From: Rhizobiaceae bacterium
GTDB taxonomy: Bacteria > Pseudomonadota > Alphaproteobacteria > Rhizobiales > Rhizobiaceae
Assembly: GCA_013214695.1 (NCBI GenBank)
Contig: JABSRX010000002.1
Coordinates: forward strand, 58,361 to 98,485
DNA: 40,125 nucleotides
Direction of reading: 5' to 3'
Shown: positions 1,252-29,299 of the stretch, piece by piece
How the letters are laid out: each line of letters starts with the position of its first letter
Position numbering within the stretch: position 1 is the stretch's first letter
Notes under the pieces: model-generated
The model's input: only the letters and a program-made list of their open reading frames with translations
Told to the model about the DNA's origin: nothing
Database searches by the model: none
Position numbers and translations under genes: made by a program

Positions 1252-1255
1252 AGCA

Positions 1256-2271: not shown

Positions 2272-2414
2272 CGTCTTCGTCCTGTTCATAGCCGGACCAT
2301 GCTCTCAATGGAGGACATGTGTGCCGGGCTGTTTATGATAGTAAAGAAGTCTATCTTGTTCCAAACTCGTCAGAACGTGATAAGCAACTTTGAATTTCGT
2401 GCCGCAGCCTATAC

Positions 2415-4241
2415 ATGAAGGTTTCCGGCAAGACAAGAAGGCAACAGGCGTCAATCGTGAGCAAAATTAACAAGGAAGAAAGCAAAGACCGGTTGGGTTT
2501 GCGCCCGCTGACACGCTTGTTTCCCTATGTCCTGCGCTACAAGGGTCATCTTGTTGGCGCACTGGTGTTTCTGGCCCTGGCAGCCGCAACAACCCTGTCT
2601 CTGCCGCTTGCCGTTCGCTCGATGATCGACAATGGCTTCACCAAGGCAGACAGCACCTTTGTCGATAACTACTTCTACGCCCTGTTTGCCATTGCCGCCG
2701 TTTTGGCCATCTCCAGTTCAATGCGTTATTACTTCGTCATCTGGCTTGGCGAGCGGGTGGTCGCGGATCTGCGCAACGAGGTGTTTGCCCATCTCACAAA
2801 ATTGTCGGCCAGCTTCTTCGATACCTCCAAGACCGGTGAATTGGTGTCCCGCCTGACGGCCGACACGACACAGATCAAGAGTGCGGCTGGAGCAACGGCG
2901 TCGATGGCGCTGCGCAATGTTGTGCTGATCATCGGCGCGATTTTCGGCATGATCTATACCAGCCCCGGCCTGTCGCTGATTGTGCTGGTGGCGATTCCGA
3001 TCATTGTGCTGCCGATCTTTGCCTTTGGACGCAATGTGCGCCGCAAGGCCCGTCATGCCCAGGACAAACTGGCCGACGCTACCGCCTATGCGTCAGAATC
3101 GATTTCCGCGGTGCGCACGCTGCAGGCCTTCACCAACGAAAGGCTTGTTTCAGGCCGTTTCTCTGATGCGGTTGAAAACGCCTTTTCCGCGGCCCGTTCC
3201 TCGGTCGCCGCCCGCGCCTTTCTGACCGCCTTTGCCATTTTCATGATCTTCGCAAGTGTGGTCGCCGTTCTGTGGATTGGCGCAGGCGCCGTTCTGGATG
3301 GCCGCATGAGTGCCGGCCTGTTGGGACAATTCCTGCTGTTTTCCGTGATGGCAGCCGGGGCCCTGGGTGCCCTTTCTGAAGTCTGGGGTGAACTGTCCCA
3401 GGCAGCCGGTGCCGCGGAGCGCCTGAGCGAACTTCTCGATACGGATCCGGAAGTCAAGGAACCGGACAATGCGATCGCATTGCCCGAGGAGGCCAAGGGT
3501 GCGATCGAATTCGAAAACGTCTGCTTTTCCTATCCAACCCGGCGCGACCATCTGATCGTCAAAGAGCTCAATCTGCAGGTGAAGCCTGGGGAAACCGTGG
3601 CGCTGGTCGGTGCTTCAGGGTCGGGCAAAAGCACCTTGTTCAACTTGGCACTGCGCTACTACGACCCGACCACGGGAACCGTGCGCATGGACGGTGTTGA
3701 TATTGCGCAGGCATCGCCGCAGGAAGTCCGCAGCCGCATTGCACTGGTGCCACAGGACACGACGATTTTCGCCATGTCGGCGGCCGACAATATCCGCTTT
3801 GGCATGCCGGAAGCGACCGACCAGCAGGTCGTCGAGGCCGCCAAACTGGCGCTGGCTGATGAATTCATCACCCAGATGAAGGACGGCTATGAGACGGTTG
3901 TTGGTGAACGGGGTGTTACCCTGTCGGGCGGTCAGCGCCAGCGCATCGCCATTGCCCGGGCGATACTAAAGAACGCACCACTGTTGCTCCTCGACGAGGC
4001 GACCAGTGCGCTGGATGCCGAAAGCGAGAAACTGGTCCAGAAGGCGTTGGATGGCCTCATGGTGGGCCGTACCACGATCGTCATTGCCCACCGCTTGGCA
4101 ACGGTGCTCAAGGCCGACCGCATTCTGGTCATGGACGGCGGCAAGTTCGTTGAAGAGGGTACCCACGAGGAACTGGTGGCCAAAGACGGCATCTACGCCC
4201 GTCTGGCACGTCTGCAGTTCGAAACCGAAATGGCCGCCTGA
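2415..4241 (+). CDS. ABC exporter, fused permease and ATPase (MsbA/multidrug type)
   Basis: A 608-residue half-transporter. The N-terminal part (about residues 45-300) has membrane segments including LVGALVFLALAAATTLSLPL, YALFAIAAVLAIS and IVLVAIPIIVLPIFAF. The C-terminal ATPase domain has Walker A GASGSGKST near residue 399, the signature LSGGQRQR near 503 and Walker B LLLLDEATSALD near 523, followed by the H-loop IAHRL. It should work as a homodimer in the inner membrane and export a lipid or hydrophobic compound. No clear ribosome-binding site precedes the ATG at 2415; a GTG at 2457 is an alternative. It is divergent from rpmE. Its stop lies only 2 bases from the end of the convergent ACT-domain gene. 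Lipid A export is possible but not shown. Confidence 0.93.
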   Translation: MKVSGKTRRQQASIVSKINKEESKDRLGLRPLTRLFPYVLRYKGHLVGALVFLALAAATTLSLPLAVRSMIDNGFTKADSTFVDNYFYALFAIAAVLAISSSMRYYFVIWLGERVVADLRNEVFAHLTKLSASFFDTSKTGELVSRLTADTTQIKSAAGATASMALRNVVLIIGAIFGMIYTSPGLSLIVLVAIPIIVLPIFAFGRNVRRKARHAQDKLADATAYASESISAVRTLQAFTNERLVSGRFSDAVENAFSAARSSVAARAFLTAFAIFMIFASVVAVLWIGAGAVLDGRMSAGLLGQFLLFSVMAAGALGALSEVWGELSQAAGAAERLSELLDTDPEVKEPDNAIALPEEAKGAIEFENVCFSYPTRRDHLIVKELNLQVKPGETVALVGASGSGKSTLFNLALRYYDPTTGTVRMDGVDIAQASPQEVRSRIALVPQDTTIFAMSAADNIRFGMPEATDQQVVEAAKLALADEFITQMKDGYETVVGERGVTLSGGQRQRIAIARAILKNAPLLLLDEATSALDAESEKLVQKALDGLMVGRTTIVIAHRLATVLKADRILVMDGGKFVEEGTHEELVAKDGIYARLARLQFETEMAA

Positions 4242-4243
4242 TC

Positions 4244-4645
4244 CTATTTTGATTGAGCAGCGAGCTTTGCCAAAATCTCCAGGGCGTTCTGCTCACGGCC
4301 TTCGGGCACAAACAGGTGATCGTGATAGAAACCGGCCACCGGATTGACCCCCATGCCCGCCTTGGCCAGTTCTGTCGCAATGCGCGCCATGAACCCGACC
4401 GCCTCCAGGGAGGAGTGCACGTCCAGCGTGATCATGCGGCATGGAAAGGCGTAGTCGATCCCGGCGGCATCGGCCTGCTCCTGCTCTAGAATGAGGGTGG
4501 TTCCTTCGGCCTCGCGGAACATCATGCGCGGGGTCAGGTTGGGTGGAATCGCATCGTCGGCCAGGGTAACGAAAACATAGACGCCGTCGACCAGTTCCGC
4601 TTTCAGGCTCTTCAGCAGAACGTCGATGTTAAGCTCGCCGGTCAA
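4244..4645 (-). CDS. ACT-domain protein (DUF2241-like)
   Basis: A 133-residue soluble protein with an ACT-like pattern: a beta strand in DGVYVFVTL, FREAEGTTLIL in the first half, and SLEAVGFMARIATELAKAGMG followed by YHDHLFVP in the second. ACT domains usually bind amino acids or other small ligands, but this stand-alone family has no assigned role. The start codon is TTG and overlaps the stop codon of the upstream SDR gene in a TTGA arrangement, so the two are translationally coupled. There is essentially no space between its end and the convergent ABC exporter gene, and no terminator is visible there. Confidence 0.8.
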   Translation of the reverse strand: MTGELNIDVLLKSLKAELVDGVYVFVTLADDAIPPNLTPRMMFREAEGTTLILEQEQADAAGIDYAFPCRMITLDVHSSLEAVGFMARIATELAKAGMGVNPVAGFYHDHLFVPEGREQNALEILAKLAAQSK

Positions 4646-5400
4646 ATGGAGCCTGCCTCAACCATATAATTGTTGGCTGTGCACATGGCGGCATCGTCTG
4701 AGGCCAGGAAGACCACCATCCGGGCCACATAGACGGGCTCGATCAGATCCTTCAGGCACTGGCGGTTGCGGTGATTTTCGATCGCCTCTTCAGTTACCCA
4801 GAGTTCCTTTTGACGGTCGGTCATGATCCAGCCGGGCACCACCGTGTTGACGCGGATGCGGTGGCCGCCAAGGTCCCGCGCCATGGTGCGGGTCAGGCCG
4901 TGAACGGCTGCTTTGGACGTGGTATAGGCCGGCATGTCGCCGCCGGCTTCCCACCAGGAATTGGAGCCCATATTGATGATCGATCCGCCGCCGGCCTCGA
5001 TCATGCCCGGGGCCACGGCCTGGATGGCAAAGAAGTGGTGGCGCAGATTGGTGGCCTGACGCTCGTCCCAATATTCCGGCGTGACATCCTGCCAACCGTG
5101 CCGGTCATCGCGTGCCGCGTTGTTGACCAGCACCGTCGCCGGTCCGAGCCTTTCGGCCAGTTTGGCAAAGGCGGACTTGAGCTGATCGATATCGCGCAGG
5201 TCGCACTTTTCGAAGGCCACGTCGCCGGACAGGCTGGCGCAGAGCTCGGCGCTGGTCGCCTCGTCCATGTCGATAAAGCCGACCTTTGATCCCTGATCCA
5301 CAAAGGCACGCACCATGTCGGCCCCGATGCCCGACGCACCACCGGTGATGAAAACGGTCTTGCCTTTGAGGCTCGGATAGATGGCAAAATTGGAAGTCAT
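4642..5400 (-). CDS. SDR family NAD(P)-dependent oxidoreductase
   Basis: A 252-residue classical short-chain dehydrogenase. The Rossmann motif TGGASGIG is near residue 20, the structural NNAA motif near 90, and the catalytic Ser (INMGSNSW) and YTTSK (Tyr and Lys) near 145-163. The cofactor loop has an acidic residue (FIDMD), which suggests NAD rather than NADP. It resembles sugar dehydrogenases of the xylose or galactose 1-dehydrogenase group, but this is a weak guess from general appearance. It is the first gene of a two-gene unit with the ACT-domain gene; GAGAAAG upstream fits a ribosome-binding site. Confidence 0.88.
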   Translation of the reverse strand: MTSNFAIYPSLKGKTVFITGGASGIGADMVRAFVDQGSKVGFIDMDEATSAELCASLSGDVAFEKCDLRDIDQLKSAFAKLAERLGPATVLVNNAARDDRHGWQDVTPEYWDERQATNLRHHFFAIQAVAPGMIEAGGGSIINMGSNSWWEAGGDMPAYTTSKAAVHGLTRTMARDLGGHRIRVNTVVPGWIMTDRQKELWVTEEAIENHRNRQCLKDLIEPVYVARMVVFLASDDAAMCTANNYMVEAGSI

Positions 5401-5504
5401 ATCTTTCTCACTCTACGGTGCGGGACAATTGCTCCTGCGATAACAGACCGTCGTTGCGATGCAAAGACGGTGGAGAGCGCAACTTTTCTTGACGGCTCTA
5501 AAAG

Positions 5505-6539
5505 CTACTTTTCGGTCAGCTTAAGCTCAATGCGGCGGTTGCGATCACGCGCCTGCTGGCTGTCTTCGGGATCAAGCGGTTGGAATTCGCCAAACCCGGC
5601 CGCCACCAGCCGCTTGGCTGGCACGCCTTGTTCGATCAGGTATTTGACAACCGATGTGGCGCGACCGGAGGACAGTTCCCAGTTGTCGCGATACCGACCC
5701 GTGCCGCTCAGCGGAATGTTGTCGGTGTGACCATCGACCCGCAATACCCATTCGATTTCGTCGGGAATTTCCTTGCCGAGTTCGATCAGCGCCTTGGCCA
5801 GCTTGGTCATTTCACCAAGCCCTTCTTCGTTCAAATTGGCGCCACCAGACGGAAACAGAACTTCCGACTGGAAGACGAAACGGTCACCGACGACACGGAT
5901 ATCGTCGCGGTTGCCGAGGATTTCACGCAGGCGACCGAAAAAGTCTGAACGGTAGCGGTTGAGTTCCTGCACTCGCTTGGCCAGGGCCACATTCAGCCGC
6001 TTGCCAAGATCGGCAATTTTGGTGGAGCTTTCGCGGTCCTTGATTTCGGACGCTTCAAGCGCGTCTTCCAAGGCAGCGATTTGTTTTCGCAAAGCTGAGA
6101 TCTGTTGGTTCAGCAGGCTAACCTGGTTCATCGCCCGCTTGGTCACTTTGCGCTGATCGTCCAGCGTGTCTTCCAGCTCTTCGGCCCGCTGTTCAGCGCT
6201 GGTGGCAGCACCGGCACCGCGGGCCAGCAGGGCCTCCAAGCGCGACTGTTCCTCCTTGCTGTCACCCAGCGACGCGGTCAGCGTGCGGATCTGATCTTCC
6301 AGGTCCTGATTGGCCGAGCGTTCCAGCGACAGCAGTGCGGTCAGTTCGTTGAGCTGGCTGTTGAGGCGGTTGAGCACCGTGTCTTTGCCGGTGATTTCTT
6401 GGCTCAGGATGAACTGTGCCAACACGAACACCGACAGCAGGAACATGATGGCGAGCAAAAGCGTCGACAGGGCATCAACAAAGCCCGGCCAGTAGTCGAC
6501 CCGCTCCCCCCTTGCTTTGCGCCCGCGACTCAGCGCCAT
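5505..6539 (-). CDS. MotB/OmpA-like stator subunit with long coiled coil
   Basis: A 344-residue protein. It has one N-terminal membrane helix (about residues 18-42) containing Asp22 in the sequence PGFVDALSTLLL, which matches the proton-binding Asp of MotB-type stators. A long stretch of heptad-like sequence (about 50-190, rich in E, L, Q and R) predicts a coiled coil. The C-terminal OmpA-like peptidoglycan-binding domain has RVDGHTDNIP followed by WELSSGRA. It should form an ion-driven complex with the MotA-like protein encoded just upstream (3 bases between them) and anchor it to the cell wall. No flagellar, Tol or TonB gene is nearby. The coiled coil is much longer than in flagellar MotB. 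The process that it drives is unknown. Confidence 0.87.
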   Translation of the reverse strand: MALSRGRKARGERVDYWPGFVDALSTLLLAIMFLLSVFVLAQFILSQEITGKDTVLNRLNSQLNELTALLSLERSANQDLEDQIRTLTASLGDSKEEQSRLEALLARGAGAATSAEQRAEELEDTLDDQRKVTKRAMNQVSLLNQQISALRKQIAALEDALEASEIKDRESSTKIADLGKRLNVALAKRVQELNRYRSDFFGRLREILGNRDDIRVVGDRFVFQSEVLFPSGGANLNEEGLGEMTKLAKALIELGKEIPDEIEWVLRVDGHTDNIPLSGTGRYRDNWELSSGRATSVVKYLIEQGVPAKRLVAAGFGEFQPLDPEDSQQARDRNRRIELKLTEK

Positions 6540-6542
6540 GGC

Positions 6543-7556
6543 TTAAAATCCGTCTTTTGGTTTGCGTGTTGTGCGCGGCGGTGGTGCCGACTTGTCCATC
6601 GTTCGGTTCAACTGTTCCAGCAGTCGCTTGACGTCGTTTTGCGACTTGCTCTGGGTTTCCACCCAGTCGCGGATCAGCTGCTGCTCGCTGCGCATGTGCT
6701 TGACCAGGGCCTGAATGCCCTCGGCGAGGCTGGCCATGGCGGCCGTGGTGCGGGCACCGCCACCGCCTTCTTTGACCTGGCTGGCAATGCGTTCCATCGC
6801 CTGAGTGACGTCCTGACCGCCGGCTGCAGCAGCCTGAAAGTCGCTGTTCAGATCGGTTACTGAAGACAGCCAGTTTTCCAGTTCCAGATAGAAGCGATTT
6901 TGGGCCTGACCCGACTGCAGGTCGAGAAAGCCGAGCACCAAAGATCCAGCAAGGCCGAACAAGGATGAGGAAAAGGCTGTGCCCATACCGTCCAGCGGCG
7001 CCCGAAGACCTGATTTCAAGGCGTCAAGAATGTCGTTGGTATCGCCTGAATTTGGGTTCAATGACCCGATCGTGTCACCGATGGACCCGATCGTGCTGAG
7101 CAAGCCCCAGAAGGTGCCGAGCAGGCCGAGGAAAACCAGCAGGCTGATCAGGTAGCGGGAAATTTCACGTCGCTCGTCCAGGCGGTTGCCGATCGAATCG
7201 AGAATAGACTGGGTTGACCCCGTCGACAGGGCAACATCGGATTTGCCCCCCAGCATGGCTTCCATTGGTGCCAACAAGACCGGCTTGCGCCGTCGTTCAT
7301 CGGCCTGACCCTTACGGAAGGAATTGACCCAGGCGACCTCCGGCATCAGTCGGATGACCTGTAAAAAGGCCAGGATGATGCCAACCAGAAGCACCCCCAG
7401 GATCAATCCGTTGAGTCCGGGATTGGTCGAAAAATTCTCAAAAATCTGCCGGTTCAAGATCAGCACCAGGAACGCAACCAGTGCAATGAAAATGAGCATC
7501 GAAAACAGATAGACTCGGGGGGATGAAAGCTTGTGGGGGTCGTATTCACGCGCCAT
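6543..7556 (-). CDS. MotA/ExbB-like stator subunit
   Basis: A 337-residue membrane protein. Two N-terminal segments (about 20-40 and 55-75) are followed by a cytoplasmic stretch and two further helices containing ISLLVFLGLLGTFWGLL and the SSSLFGLAGSLVLGFLDL motif, the hallmark of the MotA/TolQ/ExbB family. The C-terminal 100 residues are soluble and helical. The start is placed at the ATG at 7556 (MAREYDPHK) because AGGAG lies upstream; a longer reading from 7595 is less likely. It is followed at once by the MotB-like gene, so the two form a proton-channel pair of the 5:2 rotary-motor type. Known relatives in rhizobia are annotated as MotA or biopolymer transporter without a defined function. 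Confidence 0.87.
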   Translation of the reverse strand: MAREYDPHKLSSPRVYLFSMLIFIALVAFLVLILNRQIFENFSTNPGLNGLILGVLLVGIILAFLQVIRLMPEVAWVNSFRKGQADERRRKPVLLAPMEAMLGGKSDVALSTGSTQSILDSIGNRLDERREISRYLISLLVFLGLLGTFWGLLSTIGSIGDTIGSLNPNSGDTNDILDALKSGLRAPLDGMGTAFSSSLFGLAGSLVLGFLDLQSGQAQNRFYLELENWLSSVTDLNSDFQAAAAGGQDVTQAMERIASQVKEGGGGARTTAAMASLAEGIQALVKHMRSEQQLIRDWVETQSKSQNDVKRLLEQLNRTMDKSAPPPRTTRKPKDGF

Positions 7557-7742
7557 GCGAGGGAAGCTCCTGTGAGGGCGCCAAAGCGCCACCATGCTTA
7601 TCGACTAACCGGTCATTCGGCTGCGGCGAACGAGAAAACAAATCACCTATGCCCTGTGTACCGCAATTCGAGCGGCAGTTGAATACAGGAATGCGCGGAA
7701 TTCAAGGCGTTGCGCCCTGAACATCCGCATCTTTTGCGCTGA

Positions 7743-8552
7743 TCAGCCCTCTGACATGCCCTTTGGTAAGGGGCGGTTCAAGATCGAGCGCAATTTGCCA
7801 TGGATGATCTCATTGCCAGCGACAATGCGGCCTGATTCGTAGATCGAGGCATTTGGGTCCGGTTCGGAAACAAATCCGCCCGCCTCGCGGATCATCAACA
7901 TGCCGGCAGCAACATCCCAGGGCGACAATCCGGCTTCCCAATAACCGTCAAAACGACCGGCAGCGACATAGGCCAGGTTGAGCGCCGCAGATCCTGTGGC
8001 ACGCACGCCAGCGGTTTGGGTCATGATGTTGCGTTGCTCAAACAGCGCCACCCCATGGCCCTTCTTGTTGAGCGCCGGAACACCGGTGGCAATGACGCAG
8101 TCTTCCAGGGCTGAACGGTTTGCCACCCGCATGCGGCGGTCGTTGACAAAAGCGCCACGGCCCTTTTCAGCGGTGAACAGTTCTTCGGTAATAGGATTAT
8201 AGATCACACCGGCCATCAACTGTCCGGCCGTCTCCAGCGCAAGCGACACCGCAAAGAACGGATTGCCGTGCAAATAGTTAGTGGTGCCATCCAGTGGATC
8301 GATGATCCAGCGGTGATCCGAGCCTGAATCGATTTCGCCACCTTCTTCCATCAGGAAGGAATAGCCGGGGCGGTCCTTGTTGAGAGAATCGCGCAGCGTC
8401 TTTTCAGCCTTCAGATCAGCCTGCGAGACGAAGTCACCGGGACCCTTCAATGAAATCTGCAGATGTTCGACTTCGCCAAAGTCCCGGGTCAGCGAGCGAC
8501 CAGCTTTGGTGACAGCATTGACCATCACATTGAGGAGCGCAGAACGGGCCAT
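7743..8552 (-). CDS. suhB: Inositol monophosphatase family protein (SuhB-like)
   Basis: A 269-residue member of the inositol monophosphatase family, magnesium-dependent phosphatases acting on sugar or inositol phosphates. Metal ligands are visible in LMEEGGE (near residue 68), IDPLDGTTNYLHG (near 84) and SPWDVAAG (near 210). In other proteobacteria, SuhB also takes part in rRNA antitermination. Its length is normal for the family. It lies between the stator pair and the Sel1-repeat gene, all on the minus strand but with gaps of 97 to 186 bases, so it may have its own promoter. Confidence 0.9.
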   Translation of the reverse strand: MARSALLNVMVNAVTKAGRSLTRDFGEVEHLQISLKGPGDFVSQADLKAEKTLRDSLNKDRPGYSFLMEEGGEIDSGSDHRWIIDPLDGTTNYLHGNPFFAVSLALETAGQLMAGVIYNPITEELFTAEKGRGAFVNDRRMRVANRSALEDCVIATGVPALNKKGHGVALFEQRNIMTQTAGVRATGSAALNLAYVAAGRFDGYWEAGLSPWDVAAGMLMIREAGGFVSEPDPNASIYESGRIVAGNEIIHGKLRSILNRPLPKGMSEG

Positions 8553-8649
8553 GATTATCCTATGTTGGTCGACTAGACCGAAAGATGCGGGAATTTGAAC
8601 CGCGATTGATCACACTTTTGCTTTGGGTTCAAGCCGTCGCGGGCGTAGC

Positions 8650-9729
8650 CTAGCCACGAATCGAATATAACAGGCCGCGAGTCAGCTGGTTGGCGGCCTC
8701 GATGGCCCGTCTTTTGTCGATTTCGGGCATCGCCTGGAACACCCGGTCCAACTCGGTATCGTTGAAACCTGCCCGTCGGGCAATGATGTGCCAGGCGCCG
8801 GCACGGATCAGATCGGGTGGGTTTTCGCCAGCAAAGGCGTGGATGCGGGCCAGCCGGTTTTGCGCCACGACGTTGCCCTGTACAGCAGCGCGGGTAAACC
8901 ACACCCGTGCCTCTTGCGTGTCGGTCTTTCCACCACGTCCATTGGCCAGCCAGACGCCATATTCAACCTGCGCGGTGTCCAAGCCGCCCTGCGCGGATTT
9001 CTCGAGCCAGCTGCGCGCCTTTTCATCGTCGGAAAACGGAACGCCCCTGGCCTCCGCCCAAATGTTCGCCAGCGCATATTGTGCATCCGCGATGCCGGCT
9101 TCGGCCGCCTTGCGATAATAGGGCAGAGCGATTTGAAAGCCTTTCCAAGTGGGGCGCCGGGCGGTGATGAACTGGGCGACGTTGAACTGAGCGCGCGGGT
9201 GGCCGGCATCGGCAGCCTTGCGCATAAATTCTTCCCCCAGTTCCTTGTTCTGAGGAACCACGTCCCCCTGCAGCAGCAGGTTGGCATAGGTGAACTGGGC
9301 TTCGCGCCCGCCGCCCTCAGCGGCAAAGCGGTACCACTCGGCGGCCTTCTCCTTGTCCTGTGCGGCTCCCAGACCATTCCAATAAATTTCGGCGATCAGG
9401 GTTTGGGCTGCCGGGTCGCCGCTTTCTGCCCGCGGCAGCGCCAGTCGCAGCGCGGTCAGATAATAGCCGCGCTGATAAGCGCCAAAAGCGAGATCTGGGG
9501 CGCGTTCGGAATCGGCGAGGCCGGGATCCACATTGGCATCGGCATTGGGCCCGGATATTGGCGCCGGAAACTGCGGGCCTTCAATCGGGCGTTCGTATTT
9601 TGGCTTGGTTTCGGCCTGGGCGTCAGAGCCTGATTGCAGACCAAGCGCTATGCCAAAAACAACGGAGAGCGTCATCGCCGACAGGGTCGGGCCCGGCTTA
9701 ATCTTCGACAGTTTCAAAACGCGGCGCAT
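8650..9729 (-). CDS. Exported Sel1-repeat (tetratricopeptide-like) protein
   Basis: A 359-residue protein with an N-terminal signal segment (MTLSVVFGIALGL within the first 40 residues, with a likely cleavage site near AQAE). It then has a run of Sel1 repeats of about 36 residues between roughly 80 and 300. Repeat cores visible include AAEWYRFAAEGGGREAQFTYANL, shown here only in part, ALPYYRKAAEAG and ARVWFTRAAVQG. Such repeats form helical solenoids that bind other proteins, here probably in the periplasm. Its start overlaps the end of the ThiE-like gene by 32 bases, so the pair is coupled. The specific partner is unknown. Confidence 0.85.
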   Translation of the reverse strand: MRRVLKLSKIKPGPTLSAMTLSVVFGIALGLQSGSDAQAETKPKYERPIEGPQFPAPISGPNADANVDPGLADSERAPDLAFGAYQRGYYLTALRLALPRAESGDPAAQTLIAEIYWNGLGAAQDKEKAAEWYRFAAEGGGREAQFTYANLLLQGDVVPQNKELGEEFMRKAADAGHPRAQFNVAQFITARRPTWKGFQIALPYYRKAAEAGIADAQYALANIWAEARGVPFSDDEKARSWLEKSAQGGLDTAQVEYGVWLANGRGGKTDTQEARVWFTRAAVQGNVVAQNRLARIHAFAGENPPDLIRAGAWHIIARRAGFNDTELDRVFQAMPEIDKRRAIEAANQLTRGLLYSIRG

Positions 9730-22048: not shown

Positions 22049-22756
22049 ATGGCGACGAAACTTCTTATGCCCAAAGCAACCGCTGTATGGTTGGTGGACA
22101 ATACCGCTTTGACCTTCGATCAGATCGGTGCCCTGTGTGGTCTGCACACGCTGGAAGTCAAATCCATTGCCGACGGCGATTCCGCCCAGGGCATCAAGGG
22201 CCTTGATCCGATCCAGACCGGCCAGTTGAGCCGCGAGCAGATCAAGGAAGCGGAAGCCGACCCGGATTCCCGCCTGACCCTGCTGGAGCCAAAGGTTGTT
22301 GTCCCAGAGCTGAAGAAGAAGGGCCCGCGCTATACGCCAGTATCGCGTCGCCAGGACCGTCCCAATGCCATCCTGTGGCTGGTGCGCAGCCATCCTGAAA
22401 TGCGCGATTCCCAGATCATCCGTCTGGTCGGCACCACCAAAACCACGATTGCCGCCATCCGCGATCGCACCCATTGGAATTCCGCCAATCTGCAGCCAAT
22501 GGACCCTGTGACCCTCGGCATCTGCAGCCAGATTGATCTGGATTTTGAAGTGGCCAAAGCCGCCAAATACCTGCCACAGGTCGAAGAAGCTGCCGTTGAA
22601 GATGGTCTGCTGCCGGCTTCTGAAACTCAGATTGTTGAGCCGGAATTCGATCCCCAGAAGAGCGAAGAAATCGACGCAGACAGCGTTTTCAAGAACTTCG
22701 GTTCGCTGGGTGGCGACAGCGACGGCAGCGACGGCGACAGCAACTCGAACGCCTAA
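22049..22756 (+). CDS. trcR: DUF1013 protein, TrcR-like cell-cycle transcriptional regulator
   Basis: A 235-residue protein recognised by LLMPKATAVWLVDNTALTFDQIG at the start (given in part: PKATAVWLVDNT), LCGLHTLEVKSIADGD, and RPNAILWLVRSHPEMRD followed by a second helix-turn-helix-like stretch (IIRLVGTTKTTIAAIRDRTHWN). This is the DUF1013 family, named TrcR in current annotation and described as a cell-cycle-linked regulator of alphaproteobacteria; I rely on memory for that name. The C-terminal 40 residues are acidic and Ser/Gly/Asp-rich, probably disordered. AAGGACAA precedes the ATG. It ends 6 bases from the convergent SDR gene. Confidence 0.87.
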   Translation: MATKLLMPKATAVWLVDNTALTFDQIGALCGLHTLEVKSIADGDSAQGIKGLDPIQTGQLSREQIKEAEADPDSRLTLLEPKVVVPELKKKGPRYTPVSRRQDRPNAILWLVRSHPEMRDSQIIRLVGTTKTTIAAIRDRTHWNSANLQPMDPVTLGICSQIDLDFEVAKAAKYLPQVEEAAVEDGLLPASETQIVEPEFDPQKSEEIDADSVFKNFGSLGGDSDGSDGDSNSNA

Positions 22757-22762: not shown

Positions 22763-23539
22763 TCAATCCACCGTATAGGCCAGGCCCAGTCGACCGCCAT
22801 CCGCGTAGATGGTCTGGCCGGTGATGTAGTCGGCATCGCTGGACGCCAAAAAGGCGGCAATGCCAGCGATCTCGGCCGGTTCCCCGACGCGTCCAAGCGG
22901 CGTACGTGCCAATACTTTTTTCTTGGCCTTAGCGTCGCTGTTGACCGCTTCCATCATTTCCGTGGCGATTGAGCCAGGACCAATGGCGTTAACACGAATG
23001 CCATAGGGGGCCAGATATTGCGCCAGCACGTTGGTCAGCTGGCGCACCCCGCCTTTGGAAATCGTGTAGGGAATTTGCGATGCAATCGCCAGTTTCGCGT
23101 TGATCGATGACATGTTGATGATGCAACCGGCAGGGCCGCCGCTTTTCACCCGTTTGATCATCGACTTGGCGACAGCCTGAGAGCACAGAAACGGCCCCTT
23201 CAGATTGACCCGCATCACCTGTTCGAAATCGGCTTCCGAAATATCGAGAAAGTCGCCTCCCAACACAACGCCGGCATTGTTGACCAGAATATCAATATCG
23301 CCATAGGTGTCGGCGGTTTCAGCGACCAGGTTGTGCACGTCCAGGCGTTCTCCGACATCGGCACTGACATAGGAGACATTGCCCAGTTTACCGAGTTCAT
23401 CAGCCGCCGCCTCGCCCCTTTCGTCATCGATGTCGGCAATCACCACCTGGGCCCCTTCGCTCAAAAAGCGATGGGCAATGGCATAGCCGATCCCCCGGGC
23501 GGCGCCGGTGACAATGGCGGTTTTTCCCGAAAATCTCAT
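22763..23539 (-). CDS. SDR family dehydrogenase, last gene of the importer-sugar operon
   Basis: A 258-residue classical short-chain dehydrogenase. The cofactor motif TGAARGIG is near residue 12, Asp in IADIDDE suggests NAD, NNAG is near 92, and the catalytic Ser and YTISK are near 142-160. The ending [19 protein letters not shown] is typical of sugar or polyol dehydrogenases. AAAGGA is upstream of the ATG. It follows the aldose-epimerase gene after 47 bases. In context it probably oxidises the sugar, or a derived alcohol or aldehyde, brought in by the transporter encoded upstream. The substrate is not known. Confidence 0.88.
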
Positions 23540-23586
23540 TGGCTGAATCCTTTCGGTTATGGCGCCTGACCAGGACAGGACCGGTT

Positions 23587-24618
23587 TTAGGCCTTGGTGA
23601 AGCGATACTCGGTGACCTGCCGCAAGTCTTCACCCGGACGCACAATGGCGTTGGGGAAGTTGTCGTGATTTGGCGCGTCTGGCCAATTCTGGGTTTCCAT
23701 GCAAAAGCCGGCATAGGCCCCATAGGCCTCACCCTGCAACCCGGGAACCGGCGTTGCGACCTTATGCCCGGCGTAGAACTGCAGGCCAGGCTCGGTGGTC
23801 GCAACGGTCATCTGAACCCCCGACACGGCGGACTTTGCAATCGCCACATCCTGCAGGCCACGGCGGCCATTGCTGAGGCAGAAATTGTGGTCGTAGATGA
23901 GGTCGCCGCTCGCATCGCCGCCCAGATCGCGGCCGATCGGCTTGGCGGTTTGAAAGTCGAAGGGCGTGCCAGCAACCGCAACAACGTCTCCGTTGGGAAT
24001 CAGCGCGTCGTTCACCGGTAGATAATGCTTGGCGAAGATCTGAACTTCATGGTCACGGCAGTCTGCCTCGCCGCTGAGATTGAAATAGGAGTGATGGGCG
24101 AGGCCGGCAGGCGTCGGCGCGTCGCTGCGCACGCTGTAGGCAATGTGCAGGCAACCATCGTCCTTCAGTGTGAAATCGCAGGTCATCGCGCAATTGCCGG
24201 GGAAACCCATCGTACCGTCCGGATCGTCCAGCGTCAGATAGACGTGGGAACTGCCAAGGTCGGCGATCTTCCAGTGGCGTTTGCCAATGCCCGCCGATCC
24301 ACCGTGCAGCGTGTTTTCGCCGTTATTGGTGTCGGTGAGAAACTTTTGCCCGTCGATCTCAAAGCTGCCGCCACCAATGCGGTTGGCAAAGCGGCCAACT
24401 GTTGCGCCAAAATAGGGCGAGTGAGCCGGGTAATCGGCGAAATTGTCGAAGCCCAATACCAGCGGTGGTTGATGGCCTTCCAGCCGCAGATCCTGCAGAA
24501 TGGCTCCCCATGTGAGAATATTGGCAGTCAAGCCGCCGCCAGTCAGCGTTACTCGATAGACGGATTGCCCATCCTCGGTCTGACCGAAAATTTCCTTGTT
24601 TGCGCCCACAATTGTCAT
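23587..24618 (-). CDS. Aldose 1-epimerase (mutarotase)
   Basis: A 343-residue GalM-fold enzyme that interconverts alpha and beta anomers of a free sugar. Family motifs are ATVGRFANRI near residue 75, ENTLHGG (His) near 98, GLAHHSYFNLSG (catalytic His) near 175 and FCMETQNWPDAPNH (catalytic Glu) near 305. Its start overlaps the stop of the PfkB kinase gene (ATGA). The substrate sugar is not shown by the sequence. A mutarotase is useful where an enzyme downstream, here a dehydrogenase or kinase, needs one anomer. Confidence 0.92.
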   Translation of the reverse strand: MTIVGANKEIFGQTEDGQSVYRVTLTGGGLTANILTWGAILQDLRLEGHQPPLVLGFDNFADYPAHSPYFGATVGRFANRIGGGSFEIDGQKFLTDTNNGENTLHGGSAGIGKRHWKIADLGSSHVYLTLDDPDGTMGFPGNCAMTCDFTLKDDGCLHIAYSVRSDAPTPAGLAHHSYFNLSGEADCRDHEVQIFAKHYLPVNDALIPNGDVVAVAGTPFDFQTAKPIGRDLGGDASGDLIYDHNFCLSNGRRGLQDVAIAKSAVSGVQMTVATTEPGLQFYAGHKVATPVPGLQGEAYGAYAGFCMETQNWPDAPNHDNFPNAIVRPGEDLRQVTEYRFTKA

Positions 24619-25511
24619 GCTCTGTCCCTCAGGAAATCCATCACTTCTTGACGCCTCGGTGCCCCGTCGCGTCCCCCTTTACGTTCGCACTTGATCGCTG
24701 CAGCGGCGCTGGCAAAGCGGATGGCTTCAGCCTCGTCCATGCCTTCGCCCAGCGCAAGCGTAAACGCTCCATGCCAAACGTCACCGGCACCCAACGTGTC
24801 GACCGGCGTAATGTCAAATGCCGGAAACCAGGTGACCGCCCCATCCTGTGCCATGGCCACGCCGTTCTCGCCATCGGTGACAATGACTTTGCCCGGCAGC
24901 ATGGCGTCTGCCTTCAGGGTGGATTCAGCCACATCTGTAAGACCGGTGAAATCGAGCGCGCCTTGCGCTGAGAAGGCCACGTGGCTGGCCGCCTGCACGG
25001 CTGCTTCGGCCTCCAGGACCGGCGCTTCCGCGTCCATCACGCCGGGCAGACCCCGCGCCTTGGCCAATTCCATGGCGGCAAGAGCCCCGTCGCCCCACCG
25101 CGTGTCGGCCAGCACCGCCGCCAGGTCCGCCGGAGCGGCGTCGGCCATCCAGGCACCCGTTGTCGGCAAATCCGTGTCCCGGTAATTCATGATTTGCCGT
25201 TCTCCTGTGCCATCAATATAGATTGAGGAAAACGATGAACGGCGGTCAACGTGGCGCTTGACCAGTTCGGTTTGAACACCATCGCGTTGCAGATCGGCCA
25301 AGATCATATCGGCAATCTGATCGTCGCCCAGGCGCGATGCCAGATGAGCGTCTCCTTCCAGCCGCGCGATGGCCACCGCCGCGTTTGCCGCATTGCCACC
25401 GCCACTGATCGCCGCGCCGGAGGCCCGGTATTTTTCCGGCAGGCGCGGGAACCCATCCATGTGAAAGACAAAATCGAGAACGGCGACACCTGCCACCAGA
25501 ATAGAAGTCAT
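24615..25511 (-). CDS. PfkB family sugar kinase (YihV/ribokinase-like)
   Basis: A 298-residue ribokinase-fold kinase. The N-terminal part has GVAVLDFVF and SGGGNAANAAVAIARL, and the C-terminal ATP and catalytic motif is DTLGAGDVWHGAF with catalytic Asp near residue 243. Compared from memory with E. coli sulfofructose kinase YihV, it shares the spacing and sequence of LPEKY, RLGDD, GERQIMNY, VLADTRWGDGA, AFSAQG and GGRDG/GGRAG near the end. These include the Asn and Arg positions near the sulfonate pocket. Many alphaproteobacterial kinases share this look, so the substrate remains open. It starts on the stop of the permease gene (ATGA) and overlaps the epimerase gene in the same way. Confidence 0.88.
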   Translation of the reverse strand: MTSILVAGVAVLDFVFHMDGFPRLPEKYRASGAAISGGGNAANAAVAIARLEGDAHLASRLGDDQIADMILADLQRDGVQTELVKRHVDRRSSFSSIYIDGTGERQIMNYRDTDLPTTGAWMADAAPADLAAVLADTRWGDGALAAMELAKARGLPGVMDAEAPVLEAEAAVQAASHVAFSAQGALDFTGLTDVAESTLKADAMLPGKVIVTDGENGVAMAQDGAVTWFPAFDITPVDTLGAGDVWHGAFTLALGEGMDEAEAIRFASAAAAIKCERKGGRDGAPRRQEVMDFLRDRA

Positions 25512-26203
25512 GCAACGCTCGGTTTGGGTATGCGGTTTTCCAACCAGCCGAATATGACGACGATGATGCCGGTCAGCAAGACGTAGATTCCGGCAACCAA
25601 CAGAAGCGGTTCGTAAACCAGGAACGTGTCCTGACGCACCTCGGTGCTACGGCCAAACAGCTCATAGATGGTGATGGTCGCCGCCAGCGGGGTGGCCTTC
25701 AGGGTCAACACCACTTCGCCGGCAAGTGTCGGGAAGACGTTCTGTACAGCGCGGGGCAGCCAGATGCGGTAAAGGATTTTGAACGGGCTCATGCCCATGG
25801 AACGGGCCGCTTCCAATTCCCCCTTAGGCACGCCGGCAAAGGCGCCGCGCATGACCTCGCCAACATATCCCGCCACCGACAGGGTGAAGGCGACAATGGC
25901 ATAGGGGAAGGCAGCGCGTAGGACGGGCCATAGGAAGGATTCGCGGATGCCCTCGATGGAGGGAAACAACTCACCAACGCCATAATAGATCAGCCACAGC
26001 TGGATCAGCAGCGGTGTGCCGCGGATGGTCGTGCAGAACCCCCGCGCAATCGCCGCCAGCCAACGCGGACCGGTGACCTGAACCAGGCCGATGGGGACCG
26101 ACAGAAGGAAGCCCAGCGTGCTGCAAATGACCAGCAGCTGGATGGTTAGCCAGAAGCCGGAGATCAGCTTGTCGGAATATTCAGGAAGCCACGACCAATC
26201 CAT
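25508..26203 (-). CDS. Polar amino acid-type ABC transporter permease (HisM-like)
   Basis: A 231-residue inner-membrane permease of the polar amino acid uptake family. The ABC-coupling loop is in ELEAARSMGMSPFKILYRIWLP. About five hydrophobic segments are present (for example LLVICSTLGFLLSVPIGL and LLLVAGIYVLLTGIIVVIFGWLE). The start is placed at ATG 26203 (MDWSWLPEY), 11 bases after the end of the HisQ-like gene with AGGACG between; the longer ORF start would overlap it. It ends on the start of the kinase gene. It should pair with the HisQ-like permease as a heterodimer. Confidence 0.92.
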   Translation of the reverse strand: MDWSWLPEYSDKLISGFWLTIQLLVICSTLGFLLSVPIGLVQVTGPRWLAAIARGFCTTIRGTPLLIQLWLIYYGVGELFPSIEGIRESFLWPVLRAAFPYAIVAFTLSVAGYVGEVMRGAFAGVPKGELEAARSMGMSPFKILYRIWLPRAVQNVFPTLAGEVVLTLKATPLAATITIYELFGRSTEVRQDTFLVYEPLLLVAGIYVLLTGIIVVIFGWLENRIPKPSVA

Positions 26204-26213
26204 CTTGCGCGTC

Positions 26214-26924
26214 CTAAGCCATGGCCTGACCGCGCCGATAGCGGGCTTCAACCCGCCGGAAGACGGCGTTGGAGATCAGGGTCACGCAGAGATAGATCAC
26301 GGCCGCAGCAGCGTAAAACAGCAGATAATTGCGGGTGGAACCGGCAGCCGTTTTGGTGGCCGAGGCCAGTTCGAAAAAGCCGACAACGGCCAGCAAGGCC
26401 GTGTCCTTGGTGACGATCAGCCACAGATTGGCAAGGCCGGGCAGGGCGAACGGAATCATCGCCGGAATGAGAATGCGGTAGATCGACTGGCTGCGCGACA
26501 TGCCGTAGGCGAGCGCTGCCTCTGTCTGACCACGGGGCACTGCCAGCATGGCGGCACGGATCACCTCGGTGGAATAGGCGCCTTGAACGAAACCCAGAAC
26601 AATGATGCCGGCGACCAGACCGCTGATATCGATCGGGTCAAAGCCGAGACTCTCCAGTCCGTTATTGAGGGCCGCCGTGCCAGCATAATAAAGCAGCAGG
26701 ATCAGCACCAGTTCGGGAACCGCACGGATCAGGGTTGTGTAAGTGGTCAACAGCCAGCGCAAAGGCGCCGGGCCGTGAATTTTGCCCAGGGCCCCAAGCA
26801 GGCCAATGGTCAGGCCCAAAGCATAGGCGCCAATGGCGATCTGCATGGTGCTCAGCAAGCCAGACAGCAGCGAGAGGCCGCGACCAGGCGGCTCAATCCA
26901 AAGCAGTTGCAGGCTTTCAAACAC
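26214..26924 (-). CDS. Polar amino acid-type ABC transporter permease (HisQ-like)
   Basis: A 236-residue permease with the EAA-type loop QTEAALAYGMSRSQSIYRILIP and about five membrane segments (for example MQIAIGAYALGLTIGLLGAL and NYLLFYAAAAVIYLCVTLI). The start codon is GTG, with GGA upstream. A perfect 12-bp hairpin lies between the binding-protein gene and this one. It is the third gene of the operon. With the HisM-like protein it should form the channel for the substrate delivered by the periplasmic binding protein. Confidence 0.92.
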   Translation of the reverse strand: MFESLQLLWIEPPGRGLSLLSGLLSTMQIAIGAYALGLTIGLLGALGKIHGPAPLRWLLTTYTTLIRAVPELVLILLLYYAGTAALNNGLESLGFDPIDISGLVAGIIVLGFVQGAYSTEVIRAAMLAVPRGQTEAALAYGMSRSQSIYRILIPAMIPFALPGLANLWLIVTKDTALLAVVGFFELASATKTAAGSTRNYLLFYAAAAVIYLCVTLISNAVFRRVEARYRRGQAMA

Positions 26925-26943
26925 AGTCAGTCCAATCGGAAAT

Positions 26944-26971
26944 GGCTCACCCGATCAGTATCGGGTGAGCC
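26944..26971 (-). other. Perfect 12-bp hairpin between binding-protein and permease genes
   Basis: GGCTCACCCGAT at 26944-26955 pairs perfectly with ATCGGGTGAGCC at 26960-26971 around a 4-base loop. There is no T-run. It sits 7 bases past the stop of the binding-protein gene, the usual place for an RNA-stabilising or attenuating hairpin that makes the binding protein more abundant than the permeases. Confidence 0.75.
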
Positions 26972-26978
26972 GAACGGC

Positions 26979-27752
26979 TTATTTGCCGTAGATGTCGAAG
27001 TCGAAATATTTCTTCGCGATTTCGTCATAGGTACCGTCTTCCAGAACCTTGGCGATGGCCGCGTTGAACTTGGCGCGCAATTCGCCATCGCTCTTGCGCA
27101 GACCGACACCAACGCCTTTGCCGAAGACGGCTTCATCGTTGAGATAGGCCTTGATTTCGAAGTTCTTGCCAGCATCACCGCTGAGGAAGTCGGCAAAGGC
27201 CAGCGAGTCGCCGACAACAGCGTCGACGCGACCGGCAACGAGGTCGTTATTGTGCTCGTCGAAAGCCTGATATGTTTTTACTTCGTCAGCCGTGTCCGAG
27301 AAGTATTTCTTCGCGTAGTCGGCATGGGTGGTGGAGACCTGAACGGCAACGATCTTGCCTTTCACGCTGTCAGGGCTGCCGTCAATGCTGGCTGACTTAG
27401 CTGCAACCATGGCAGCTGGCGTGTTGTAGTATTTGTCGGAAAAGTCGATGACCTTCATGCGCTTTTCGGTGATCGACATGGACGCGAAGATCGCGTCGAT
27501 TTTCTTGGCGTTGAGGGCCGGAATGATGCCGTCCCATGCGATTGGCGTCCAAACGCAGGTCTCACCCATGGCTTCACAAATCGCATTGCCCAATTCGATT
27601 TCAAAGCCGGTGCGGTTGCCGTTGGCATCCTGGTCGGCAAATGGTGGATAGGGTGCGGAATCAAGACCAAGCTTGATTTCAGCGCTGGCGGCAGACACGC
27701 CGAGGCCGGCGGCAAACACCGTGACGGCAAGAAGGGCTTTAAGTGATTTCAT
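26979..27752 (-). CDS. Periplasmic substrate-binding protein, polar amino acid type
   Basis: A 257-residue family 3 solute-binding protein. A signal peptide ends near SAASAEIKLG. The body has the lysine/arginine/ornithine-binding layout: APYPPFADQDANGNRTGFEIEL in part, CEAMGETCVWTPIAWDGIIPAL in part, and ASMSITEKRMKVIDFSDKYYN in part, with Asp in ARVDAVVGDS-like position (GRVDAVVGDS). AAGGGAG is upstream of the ATG. The likely ligand class is a cationic or polar amino acid or a conjugate of one, but the operon partners are sugar enzymes, so the true ligand may differ. Confidence 0.92.
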   Translation of the reverse strand: MKSLKALLAVTVFAAGLGVSAASAEIKLGLDSAPYPPFADQDANGNRTGFEIELGNAICEAMGETCVWTPIAWDGIIPALNAKKIDAIFASMSITEKRMKVIDFSDKYYNTPAAMVAAKSASIDGSPDSVKGKIVAVQVSTTHADYAKKYFSDTADEVKTYQAFDEHNNDLVAGRVDAVVGDSLAFADFLSGDAGKNFEIKAYLNDEAVFGKGVGVGLRKSDGELRAKFNAAIAKVLEDGTYDEIAKKYFDFDIYGK

Positions 27753-27770
27753 TTGTTTACTCCCTTGGTA

Positions 27771-28553
27771 CTAATGAACCGATTTGACGAACGCTCTGCA
27801 GCGTTCACTTGTTGTATTGTTGAACACCTTGTCAGGTGTCCCTTCCTCTTCAACCAGCCCCTGGTGAAGAAAAATGACGTTGCTGGAGACATCACGGGCA
27901 AAAGCCATTTCGTGGGTCACCAAAATCATTGTGCGGCCTTCTTCGGCAATGCCCTGAATCACCTTCAGCACCTCGCCGACCAGTTCCGGATCAAGCGCCG
28001 ACGTGGGCTCATCAAACAGCATGGCCTGCGGTTCCAAGGCCAGCGCGCGGGCAATCGCGGCGCGCTGCTGCTGGCCACCGGACAGGAAGGCCGGATACTG
28101 GTCCCGCTTCTCATACAGACCCACCCGCTGCAGCATGGCCTCGCATTTCTCCCGTGCTTCAGCCTTGCTCTGACCGAGCACATGTACCGGTGCTTCCATG
28201 ACGTTTTGCAGGACCGTCATATGGCCCCAGAGATTGAAGTTCTGGAACACCATGCCGAGATTGGTGCGCAGCCGTTGAATCTGTTTCTTGTCAGCTGGAT
28301 GCATTTCGCCATTGCGCGGAGGGGTGAACTTGATCGCCTCGCCGGCGATCTCGATATTGCCGGCCGATGGCAGTTCCAGCAGGTTGATGCAGCGCAGAAA
28401 GGTTGATTTCCCGGAGCCCGACGCACCGATGATGGAGATGACGTCACCATCATGGGCATCCAGCGAAACCCCCTTGAGCACTTCCAGGCTTCCAAAGTTT
28501 TTATGCAGGTCGGTCACCCGTACCGCGCTATTGGCGCCAGAAGTTGAACTCAT
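27771..28553 (-). CDS. Polar amino acid-type ABC transporter ATPase (HisP/GlnQ-like)
   Basis: A 260-residue ATPase with Walker A GASGSGKST, Q-loop VFQNFNLWGHMT, signature LSGGQQQR, Walker B AMLFDEPTSALDPE and H-loop LVTHEMAF. It has the small insert before the Q-loop (EMHPADKKQIQRLR) usual in the HisP/OccP subfamily. The start chosen is the ATG at 28553; a TTG five codons earlier is possible. It is the first gene of a seven-gene minus-strand operon, so the promoter should be between it and ureG, in roughly 28554-28680. Confidence 0.93.
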   Translation of the reverse strand: MSSTSGANSAVRVTDLHKNFGSLEVLKGVSLDAHDGDVISIIGASGSGKSTFLRCINLLELPSAGNIEIAGEAIKFTPPRNGEMHPADKKQIQRLRTNLGMVFQNFNLWGHMTVLQNVMEAPVHVLGQSKAEAREKCEAMLQRVGLYEKRDQYPAFLSGGQQQRAAIARALALEPQAMLFDEPTSALDPELVGEVLKVIQGIAEEGRTMILVTHEMAFARDVSSNVIFLHQGLVEEEGTPDKVFNNTTSERCRAFVKSVH

Positions 28554-28681: not shown

Positions 28682-29299
28682 TCAAGAGTGCATCAGGCCG
28701 CCCTGATGACATATGAATTTAACAATGTTTTCCACGCCCTTGCCGGCCCGCAGATCGGTGAATTCCGTTGTCAGGTTCGGACGCGCATTGGCGGCATCGC
28801 CGCGCATCCGATCAAGGTCTGCCCCGACATGGGGCGCCAGATCGGTCTTGTTGACCAGCAACAAGTCTGAGCGGGTGATCGCCGGCCCGCCCTTGCGCGG
28901 AATGTCGTCGCCTTGCGCCACCGACACCACATAGATGGTCAGATCGGCGAGATCTGGCGAAAAGGTCGCCGCCAGATTGTCGCCACCGGATTCGATAAAG
29001 ATAACGTCGAGGTCCGCGTGACGGCCGTTCAGTTCGTCAATGGCGCGCAGGTTGATCGACGCATCTTCGCGGATCGCCGTATGGGGACAGCCGCCGGTCT
29101 CGACACCGATAATGCGGTCTGATGGCAGTGCCTGCATGCGCACCAGTGCATCGGCATCTTCACGGGTGTAGATGTCGTTGGTGATCACGCCGACGGAAAA
29201 GTCGCTGCGCATGGCTTTGCAGAGTTTTTCTGTCAGAGTGGTCTTTCCGGAACCGACGGGGCCGCCGATGCCAACCCGCAAGGGGCCATTGCTGCTCAT
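28682..29299 (-). CDS. ureG: Urease accessory GTPase
   Basis: A 205-residue SIMIBI-class GTPase that delivers nickel to apo-urease with UreD, UreF and UreE. The P-loop is [10 protein letters not shown], followed by the conserved [15 protein letters not shown] nickel-site region (Cys and His in CPH), IESGGDNL and the guanine-specificity motif VNKTDL. Length is normal. Its start overlaps the stop of ureF (ATGA). It is the last gene of the urease cluster. Confidence 0.97.

Follow-up and report, generated by a model that had tools for sequence, protein, structure and literature searches.

A YihV-type kinase and a mutarotase in an amino acid importer operon of a Rhizobiaceae bacterium, probably the displaced half of a hybrid sulfoglycolytic pathway

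Results

The window analysed here is a stretch of 40,125 nucleotides from a Rhizobiaceae bacterium (assembly GCA_013214695.1, contig JABSRX010000002.1, positions 58,361 to 98,485), in which seven minus-strand open reading frames (ORFs; 28553 to 22763) encode, in reading order, an ATPase, a binding protein, two permeases, a PfkB kinase, an aldose 1-epimerase (mutarotase), and a short-chain dehydrogenase/reductase (SDR). The kinase and the mutarotase probably represent the displaced half of a hybrid sulfo-Embden-Meyerhof-Parnas (sulfo-EMP) pathway for sulfoquinovose (SQ), the other enzymes of which are encoded elsewhere in the genome, a reading that we rate at roughly 0.78. Protein families, conserved residues, co-occurrence, and gene orders were observed directly, and it is from these that we infer all of the activities, the SQ substrate, and the joint action of the window kinase with a remote operon.

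In the proposed route, SQ or SQ glycosides would enter through a tripartite ATP-independent periplasmic (TRAP) importer, an NAD-dependent sulfoquinovosidase of glycoside hydrolase family 188 (GH188) type would release SQ, and the window mutarotase would open or interconvert its anomers. An SftI/SqvD-type isomerase would then convert SQ to sulfofructose, which the window kinase would phosphorylate to sulfofructose-1-phosphate and a LacD-type class I aldolase would cleave to dihydroxyacetone phosphate and sulfolactaldehyde; the latter would be oxidised to sulfolactate, with SuyAB predicted to desulfonate sulfolactate. The window importer, of the lysine/arginine/ornithine (LAO) type and presumed to take up basic amino acids, and the SDR, a presumed oxidoreductase, would be co-transcribed or adjacent neighbours with other jobs. 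By homology, the isomerase, kinase, and aldolase types are all present in this one genome. Labels are used below for genomes (G, with G000 that of the window), loci (L), and contigs of the window's own genome (C); gene lists came from a home-made caller that includes false ORFs and misses some genes, and many of the named loci end at contig ends.

Kinase and mutarotase

The nearest solved relative of the kinase was the Escherichia coli sulfofructose kinase YihV, to which it is 39% identical (7ag6, 199 bits), followed by an uncharacterised sugar kinase (2rbc, 152 bits) and a ribokinase (93 bits). An AlphaFold2 model with a mean predicted local distance difference test score of 94.8 gave the same order in Foldseek, where rows 1–8 were YihV chains (template modelling score 0.89–0.95, 38–39% identity) with 2rbc and ribokinases next. 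The kinase possesses Lys27, Asn109, Arg138, and Asp244, of which we take the first three to correspond to the sulfonate pocket of YihV. Among 23 aligned kinases, Lys27 and Arg138 were invariant and position 109 was variable even between kinases of the same operon type, such that Asn109 is not diagnostic. The initial annotation had called the kinase YihV-like from an Asn and an Arg; the assignment is borne out by sequence, by fold, and by a clade dominated by loci with SftI-like isomerases, and both residues are present, though the Asn that it stressed is the variable one. The window kinase is proposed, on this likeness, to be a sulfofructose 1-kinase. A fructosyl-amino-acid (Amadori) pathway was considered and disfavoured, with the fructoselysine-kinase model scoring 50 bits (cut-off, 247) and a deglycase not searched for.

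The mutarotase carries the motifs LHGG, HHSYFNL, and ETQ, which match, as mapped by eye, the conserved mutarotase His, His, and Glu described in PMC5902678. GalM proteins of at least 35% identity occurred in 35 of the 80 named kinase loci, and a mutarotase fits an SQ pathway, as had been suggested at the outset.

A remote TRAP operon and putative desulfonation genes

Contig C179 of the same genome (L112) contains a LacI gene, DctQMP, a MauG-like gene, a LacD-type aldolase, an SftI-like isomerase, and a Gfo/Idh protein; the aldolase shares 77% and the isomerase 64% identity with its G035 counterpart. The absence of a sulfoquinovosidase, isomerase, or aldolase, stated earlier for the window, holds locally and fails genome-wide, since all three types are on C179. 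In relatives, the operon with the same kinase type consists of a TRAP importer, a LacD-type aldolase, a fucose-isomerase-like protein, and Gfo/Idh, often with MauG-like and GalM genes, and at four loci (L037, L074, L077, and L079) a kinase of this type lies inside the TRAP operon, adjoining the aldolase. No kinase and no GalM came to light around the C179 operon (GalM was not searched for elsewhere in the genome), and TRAP operons with no kinase visible nearby were also present in G002, G004, G006, G007, G009, G012, and G018. The aldolase and isomerase both occurred in 7 of the 8 genomes with a window-type kinase, counting that of the window.

The sole NCBIfam match of the isomerase was the sulfoquinovose isomerase SftI (NF048012), nearly end to end (E 8e-83), and the protein is designated here as SftI-like by sequence and not as a member by NF048012. 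The aldolase belongs to PF01791, assigned via its G035 relative, with 8tnf (330 bits) ahead of LacD (122–135 bits). For the Gfo/Idh protein, 8zn9, 8qc3, and 8qc2 matched at 385–407 bits and the next match at 76 bits; 8zn9 carries a generic name only, and 8QC2, 8QC3, 8QC5, 8QC6, and 8QC8 are described as structures of the NAD-dependent sulfoquinovosidase SqgA (GH188; PMC10755693). The GH188 sulfonate site has been given as R166, L170, and K172 (PMC11465081), and the corresponding R-x3-L-x-K spacing was present in the C179 protein and in all of the related loci scanned, 48 of 48 with some genomes represented more than once (two loci each; numbering matched by spacing). Judged by these matches, the C179 Gfo/Idh protein is a predicted GH188-type sulfoquinovosidase in which the sulfonate-binding residues are kept.

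The TRAP binding protein had 93 relatives in the PDB, mostly unnamed DctP subunits, with an isethionate-binding protein fourth (99 bits) and sialic-acid-binding proteins further down; other than for these last, no sugar was named as a ligand among the 93. G001 encodes a TRAP binding protein that shares 84% identity with the one from the L037 operon and lies near a GH188-type gene, in a neighbourhood with a flavin reductase, an aldo-keto reductase, and an alkanesulfonate-monooxygenase-type protein (242 bits; cut-off, 518), and G013 has a similar neighbourhood, as judged by eye, with a GH188-type gene and a TRAP binding protein 87% identical to that of L037. A gene set of this kind is given for the SQ monooxygenase pathway (sulfo-SMO; PMC13372026), and GH188 is described as near-universal in Roseobacter sulfo-SMO clusters (PMC10755693). 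This sulfo-SMO-like context of its relatives points to SQ or SQ glycosides as the probable TRAP cargo.

An 18-base palindrome, AATGGTACCGGTATCATT, identical at L112:14803-14820 and L115:16880-16897, precedes the TRAP operon of both G000 and G002, beside a LacI-type gene, and is a candidate operator. Shared regulation of the window and the TRAP operon through it was considered and rejected, as the palindrome was found at the latter and not in the window. A di-haem MauG-like protein (CCP_MauG; e.g., L112:9601-11418 and L035:7721-9541) is frequent in TRAP operons of the sulfosugar type and has no evident role in them. At two loci (L074:4140-6257 and L077:11833-13953), a GH31 glycosidase is located at the end of the TRAP operon, in the position of the GH188-type gene in other loci; the L074 protein was considered as a sulfoquinovosidase and rejected because it is YicI-like (about 346 bits, compared to 145 for YihQ).

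Contig C44 (L234) of the same genome possesses SuyA-, SuyB-, SlcC-, and ComC-type genes in a row. The first two, annotated as UxaA-family hydrolase, are what we take, from gene context, to be SuyA and SuyB of the sulfolactate sulfo-lyase type. A SuyB relative of Cupriavidus pinatubonensis (66.5%) adjoins annotated hpsN and hpsO, and one of Paracoccus seriniphilus adjoins hydroxyacid and Ldh dehydrogenases and a putative sulfate exporter.

Distribution and phylogeny

Using 396 other genomes of the order, evenly drawn, it was possible to compare the occurrence of the kinase (E up to 1e-55) and the isomerase (E up to 1e-60). The kinase was present in 53 genomes, the isomerase in 30, and the two together in 29 (Fisher p 2.6e-28, with no correction for kinship). 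One genus, g97, accounted for 10 of the 30 isomerase genomes and 9 of the 29 with both, and in the one g97 genome opened (G255, L091) the kinase groups with YihV. A GH188-type protein was detected in 36 genomes, 15 shared with the kinase and 14 with the isomerase, leaving about two thirds of kinase genomes without one at the cut-off used. Across the 80 named kinase loci, SftI-like isomerases were found at 46, aldolases at 42, Gfo at 37, DctP at 31, SuyA at 11, SuyB at 10 (e.g., Hoeflea L137 and L151; Nitratireductor L149, L152, and L156), and ComC at 5.

In a kinase tree of 122 rows, in which rows with unopened neighbourhoods lack context labels, the eight window-type kinases formed one clade (100/99) within a clade of 65 rows (100/98), 45 of them from loci with the isomerase. 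The nearest row to the window-type clade was the kinase of a full operon in Salaquimonas (L134; 90/77, not starred). YihV paired with the L091 kinase (100/99), which is from a sulfo-EMP-like cluster with a YihQ-type GH31 (NCBIfam PRK10426, 990 bits), and this pair fell outside the 112-row clade holding the window kinase. The genome has nine other PfkB matches, of which the three that could be aligned were all far outside.

Within the genus, the kinase was found in 8 of 14 other genomes (E up to 1e-30). A search for the gene order, also proposed at the outset, recovered the complete seven-gene run at 60–94% protein identity in four of the 14 (G002, G004, G009, and G012), always with TrcR adjacent. 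G007 has six genes of the operon, with the SDR missing, and G001 and G006 have the kinase, GalM, and SDR, with the importer absent; in the eighth kinase-bearing genome, G003, the kinase is within a TRAP operon. Relatives of the ATPase (81–94% identical) were present in five genomes of the genus. In G006, a remnant consisting of the first 39 ATPase residues (L032:9306-9413; 69% identical) directly precedes the kinase, such that the importer alone seems to have been lost there and the kinase kept. The gene order is conserved and not due to chance, and the importer and the SDR are separable from the pair of kinase and GalM. The site between mutarotase and SDR seems to accept insertions: a cysteine-desulfurase-like gene in G001 (L031:11412-12671) and a NitT/TauT-like ABC (ATP-binding cassette) system in G006 (L032:11397-13712), both named by eye.

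Operon layout, importer, and dehydrogenase

The seven-gene operon described in the initial annotation is real (Table 1), with gene classes confirmed by Pfam and NCBIfam domains (ABC ATPase, LAO-type SBP_bac_3, two BPD_transp_1, PfkB, Aldose_epim, and adh_short_C2), and the ATGA overlaps reported at the permease-kinase and kinase-epimerase junctions are both present in the sequence. The HisM/ArtM-like permease may have its real start downstream of 26251. The operon is flanked by urease genes at one end and by TrcR and RcdA at the other; urease genes occupy the same end in G001, G009, and G012, whereas the stretches examined of G002, G004, G006, and G007 showed none.

Table 1. Features of the operon and its flanks (positions in the window)
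Feature	Position	Strand	Basis
ABC ATPase, HisP-like (LAO/polar amino acid type)	27771..28553	-	NCBIfam HisP 374 bits, cut-off 466
Periplasmic binding protein, LAO family	26979..27752	-	TIGR01096 234 bits, cut-off 256
ABC permease, HisQ-like	26214..26924	-	PF00528; NCBIfam HisQ 190 bits, cut-off 319
ABC permease, HisM/ArtM-like	25508..26251	-	PF00528; ATGA overlap with kinase
PfkB kinase, YihV (sulfofructose kinase) type; proposed sulfofructose 1-kinase	24615..25511	-	PDB, AlphaFold2/Foldseek, tree, residues
Aldose 1-epimerase (GalM-like); proposed sulfoquinovose mutarotase	23587..24618	-	PF01263 276 bits
SDR oxidoreductase; probably TrcR/RcdA-locus resident outside the sugar pathway	22763..23539	-	Relatives in order, neighbourhoods
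TrcR, conserved flank outside operon	22049..22756	+	PF06242 216 bits
UreG, urease operon flank, outside the system	28682..29299	-	Translation by eye; 81–84% matches in L027, L031, L033

All of the importer subunits resemble LAO/His-type proteins, in agreement with the polar amino acid class originally assigned. The best solved relatives of the binding protein were LAO proteins, and it retains most ligand residues with three changed while scoring under the TIGR01096 cut-off. Among the positions that we take to be LAO ligand residues, Asp11, Tyr14, Ser70, Ser72, Arg77, Thr121, and Asp161 are kept in the alignment and Phe52, Ser69, and Leu117 are changed. The importer is probably a basic-amino-acid (LAO) system, as judged from these matches and residues, and probably a passenger in the operon. 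Because the permease-kinase overlap implies a common transcript for importer and kinase, the case for reading importer and SDR as neighbours with other jobs is circumstantial. In G011, a binding-protein relative (60%) occurs with ATPase and permeases and without such a kinase (L235 6335-16776); this importer has a sulfatase-like gene on one side and convergent inositol-type genes, named by eye, on the other. At L040 (G051, 774-9575), a polar amino acid ABC system is divergently arranged beside a 39% kinase relative, HpcH-type and LacD-type aldolases, and an SDR, which is an independent pairing of the amino acid importer and kinase themes.

Relatives of the window SDR (51–70% identical) were present in 132 of the 396 other genomes of the order. 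Of four SDR neighbourhoods opened, three contained RcdA within about 6 kb (L267, L268, and L269), two of these also TrcR (L267 and L269), and L270 neither. The SDR is probably a resident of the TrcR/RcdA locus and a passenger here, as its relatives' neighbourhoods suggest. A sulfo-Entner-Doudoroff (sulfo-ED) pathway was considered and disfavoured: among the best 60 of 737 solved SDR matches, many with generic names, none was named sulfoquinovose dehydrogenase, the SDR looks locus-resident, and other sulfo-ED enzymes were not searched for.

Alternative explanations

The core genes of the proposed pathway do not form one cluster here and are split over two contigs, compared to the clustered arrangement in L037, L079, and L134. 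Several observations weigh against a two-locus sulfo-EMP pathway. A scan of the window that allowed up to 4 mismatches did not find the palindrome AATGGTACCGGTATCATT. The C179 isomerase, at 278.6 bits, is below the curated SftI cut-off of 700; the aldolase matches YihT weakly (71–73 bits) and hence is not of the E. coli subfamily; and the C44 ComC-type protein has L-sulfolactate dehydrogenase as its best model at 187 bits, below a cut-off of 500. A sulfolactaldehyde dehydrogenase could not be pinned down in the genome (best GabD-type match 53%, C387). Of the 16 genomes tested, 15 have a close SuyB (73–85% identical) regardless of whether they carry the kinase, and SuyB alone is therefore not a pointer to SQ. 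G003, a member of the same genus, has its kinase in a TRAP operon, and in the tree this kinase and that of the window are not sisters; in an assembly of 394 contigs and 94.7% completeness a second kinase could be hidden. The isomerase is also lacking at the cut-off in 24 of 54 kinase genomes (G337 among them); G001, which is 100% complete, has kinase, GalM, and SDR, yet gave no match for the LacD-type aldolase and no more than a distant one for the isomerase; and the Bosea-type kinases, some with GalM, sit beside urease in a clade of their own without the isomerase, where the G337 kinase (L081) also nests. These last three observations speak for an alternative that we consider unlikely, in which the substrate of kinase and mutarotase is a different sugar, such as a sulfotagatose derived from sulfofucose or a ketohexose lacking a sulfonate, and the C179 operon uses another kinase or is a relic. 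A sulfofucose cluster with PF00294 and PF01791 genes, weighed as sulfotagatose enzymes, is described as well, though these were not induced (PMC12421959). Against this alternative, the kinase accompanies the isomerase in 29 of 30 genomes, the surroundings of the C179 operon yielded no kinase, the three alignable PfkB paralogues are far outside in the tree, and the window-type kinases nest in the clade dominated by isomerase loci.

Two further alternatives concern the remaining genes of the operon. That the LAO-type importer carries the pathway substrate, whether a sulfosugar, an amino sugar, or a sugar-amino-acid conjugate, is improbable. The ATGA overlap, the recurrence of this order of importer and kinase in five further genomes of the genus, the arrangement in G051, and the three replaced LAO residues speak for it; against it, most ligand residues are kept, G001 and G006 retain the kinase pair without the importer (in G006 with a remnant suggesting its loss alone), G011 has the importer without the kinase, and the pathway operon carries its own TRAP importer. 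The charged-sugar or conjugate cargo first envisaged is accordingly not upheld. A place for the SDR in the pathway, as SQ dehydrogenase, sulfolactaldehyde reductase, or sulfopropanediol dehydrogenase, appears very improbable. An annotated HpsO is 37% identical to it, an identity ordinary within the SDR superfamily. The SDR stays with kinase and GalM in G001 and G006, and SDR-family enzymes occur in sulfo-ED (PMC12133307), but its relatives are in 132 genomes of the order compared to 53 for the kinase, RcdA is near in three and TrcR in two of the four neighbourhoods, and the G007 locus keeps kinase and GalM without it; its proposed membership in a sugar pathway is not supported. A bolder version of the hybrid sulfo-EMP pathway, rather unlikely as a whole, is that the commitment step of sulfosugar breakdown, in the form of kinase and mutarotase, was captured by a basic-amino-acid importer operon beside urease and is expressed along with nitrogen uptake instead of with the TRAP operon, giving a two-locus desulfonating sulfo-EMP under nitrogen and not sugar control. 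The shared transcript is implied by the observed overlap, and nitrogen control itself is speculation; the missing palindrome does not exclude such control, and since the importer has no urease neighbour in the G002 and G004 stretches, the urease link is not general.

Kinases of the same wider family adjacent to urease, some with GalM, were seen at L155, L176, L182, L184, L191, L196, L198, L200, L202, and L208 (Bosea and kin) and at L081. The window kinase is also near urease, making two seemingly independent urease neighbourhoods.

Comparison with known systems

The proposed pathway resembles the E. coli sulfo-EMP (yih cluster) in its PfkB-type sulfofructose kinase, class I aldolase family (PF01791), mutarotase role, and proposed intermediates, and differs in the SftI/SqvD-type isomerase in place of YihS, an aldolase nearer to LacD and 8tnf than to YihT, a GH188-type instead of a GH31 sulfoquinovosidase, the TRAP importer, and the separate locus of kinase and mutarotase. 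Sulfo-EMP2 and hybrid sulfo-EMP clusters share an SqvD-type isomerase (PF02952) combined with other isozymes, and a hybrid with SqvD replacing YihS is described; compared to these clusters, the present set has a PF00294 kinase and not the PfkA-type SqiK, and a PF01791 aldolase and not the class II SqiA (PMC9594981). Similar in content are two actinobacterial GH188 clusters (PMC11465081), described with GH188, sulfofructose kinase, sulfofructose phosphate aldolase, a ‘fucose isomerase’, sulfolactate sulfo-lyase, and a phosphoglycerate-type dehydrogenase; one of the two is given without the aldolase, and they are called possible new sulfoglycolytic pathways. Those clusters have an ABC importer and an in-cluster kinase, compared to TRAP here, and by alignment the GH188 Leu170 is Tyr in them and Leu here. 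The putative desulfonation genes match the SuyAB/SlcC/ComC sulfolactate degradation of Cupriavidus and Paracoccus in the SuyA-SuyB pair and in side-by-side D-2-hydroxyacid and Ldh_2-type dehydrogenases, as in P. seriniphilus, but lie on a separate contig and occur in the genus also without the kinase. LAO/HisJ importers are alike in all four subunits and most binding residues; here these genes overlap and run with a kinase of sulfosugar type and its mutarotase.

The enzyme combination is not new in kind, since the clusters of PMC11465081 contain nearly the same set and PMC10755693 places GH188 in sulfo-EMP clusters. As far as the literature was searched, what is new is the alphaproteobacterial TRAP version in which a PF00294 kinase and the mutarotase have been split off to join the genes of an amino-acid importer; none of the titles and abstracts covered had such a split kinase, which is not proof of its being unpublished. 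A sulfoglycolysis survey is described as keeping only genomes with all hits within 10 ORFs (PMC13372026), and surveys that need all of the genes in a short window are likely to overlook this genome along with its sister species. The same source gives sulfo-SMO as the prevalent route in Hyphomicrobiales and Rhodobacterales, to which the pathway, if it works, would add a hybrid sulfo-EMP route equipped with an importer and desulfonation genes of its own. The system would then represent a pathway seen drifting apart into two loci, and provide test material for the discrimination of sulfosugars by YihV-type kinases and LacD-type aldolases. On Zymomonas mobilis plasmid pZZM402 (L244, 128-9907), a run of annotated class II aldolase, aldose epimerase, SftI-like isomerase (39%), Gfo/Idh, major facilitator superfamily, and succinate-semialdehyde-type dehydrogenase genes resembles a cluster of the sulfo-EMP2 type, with no kinase annotated in it.

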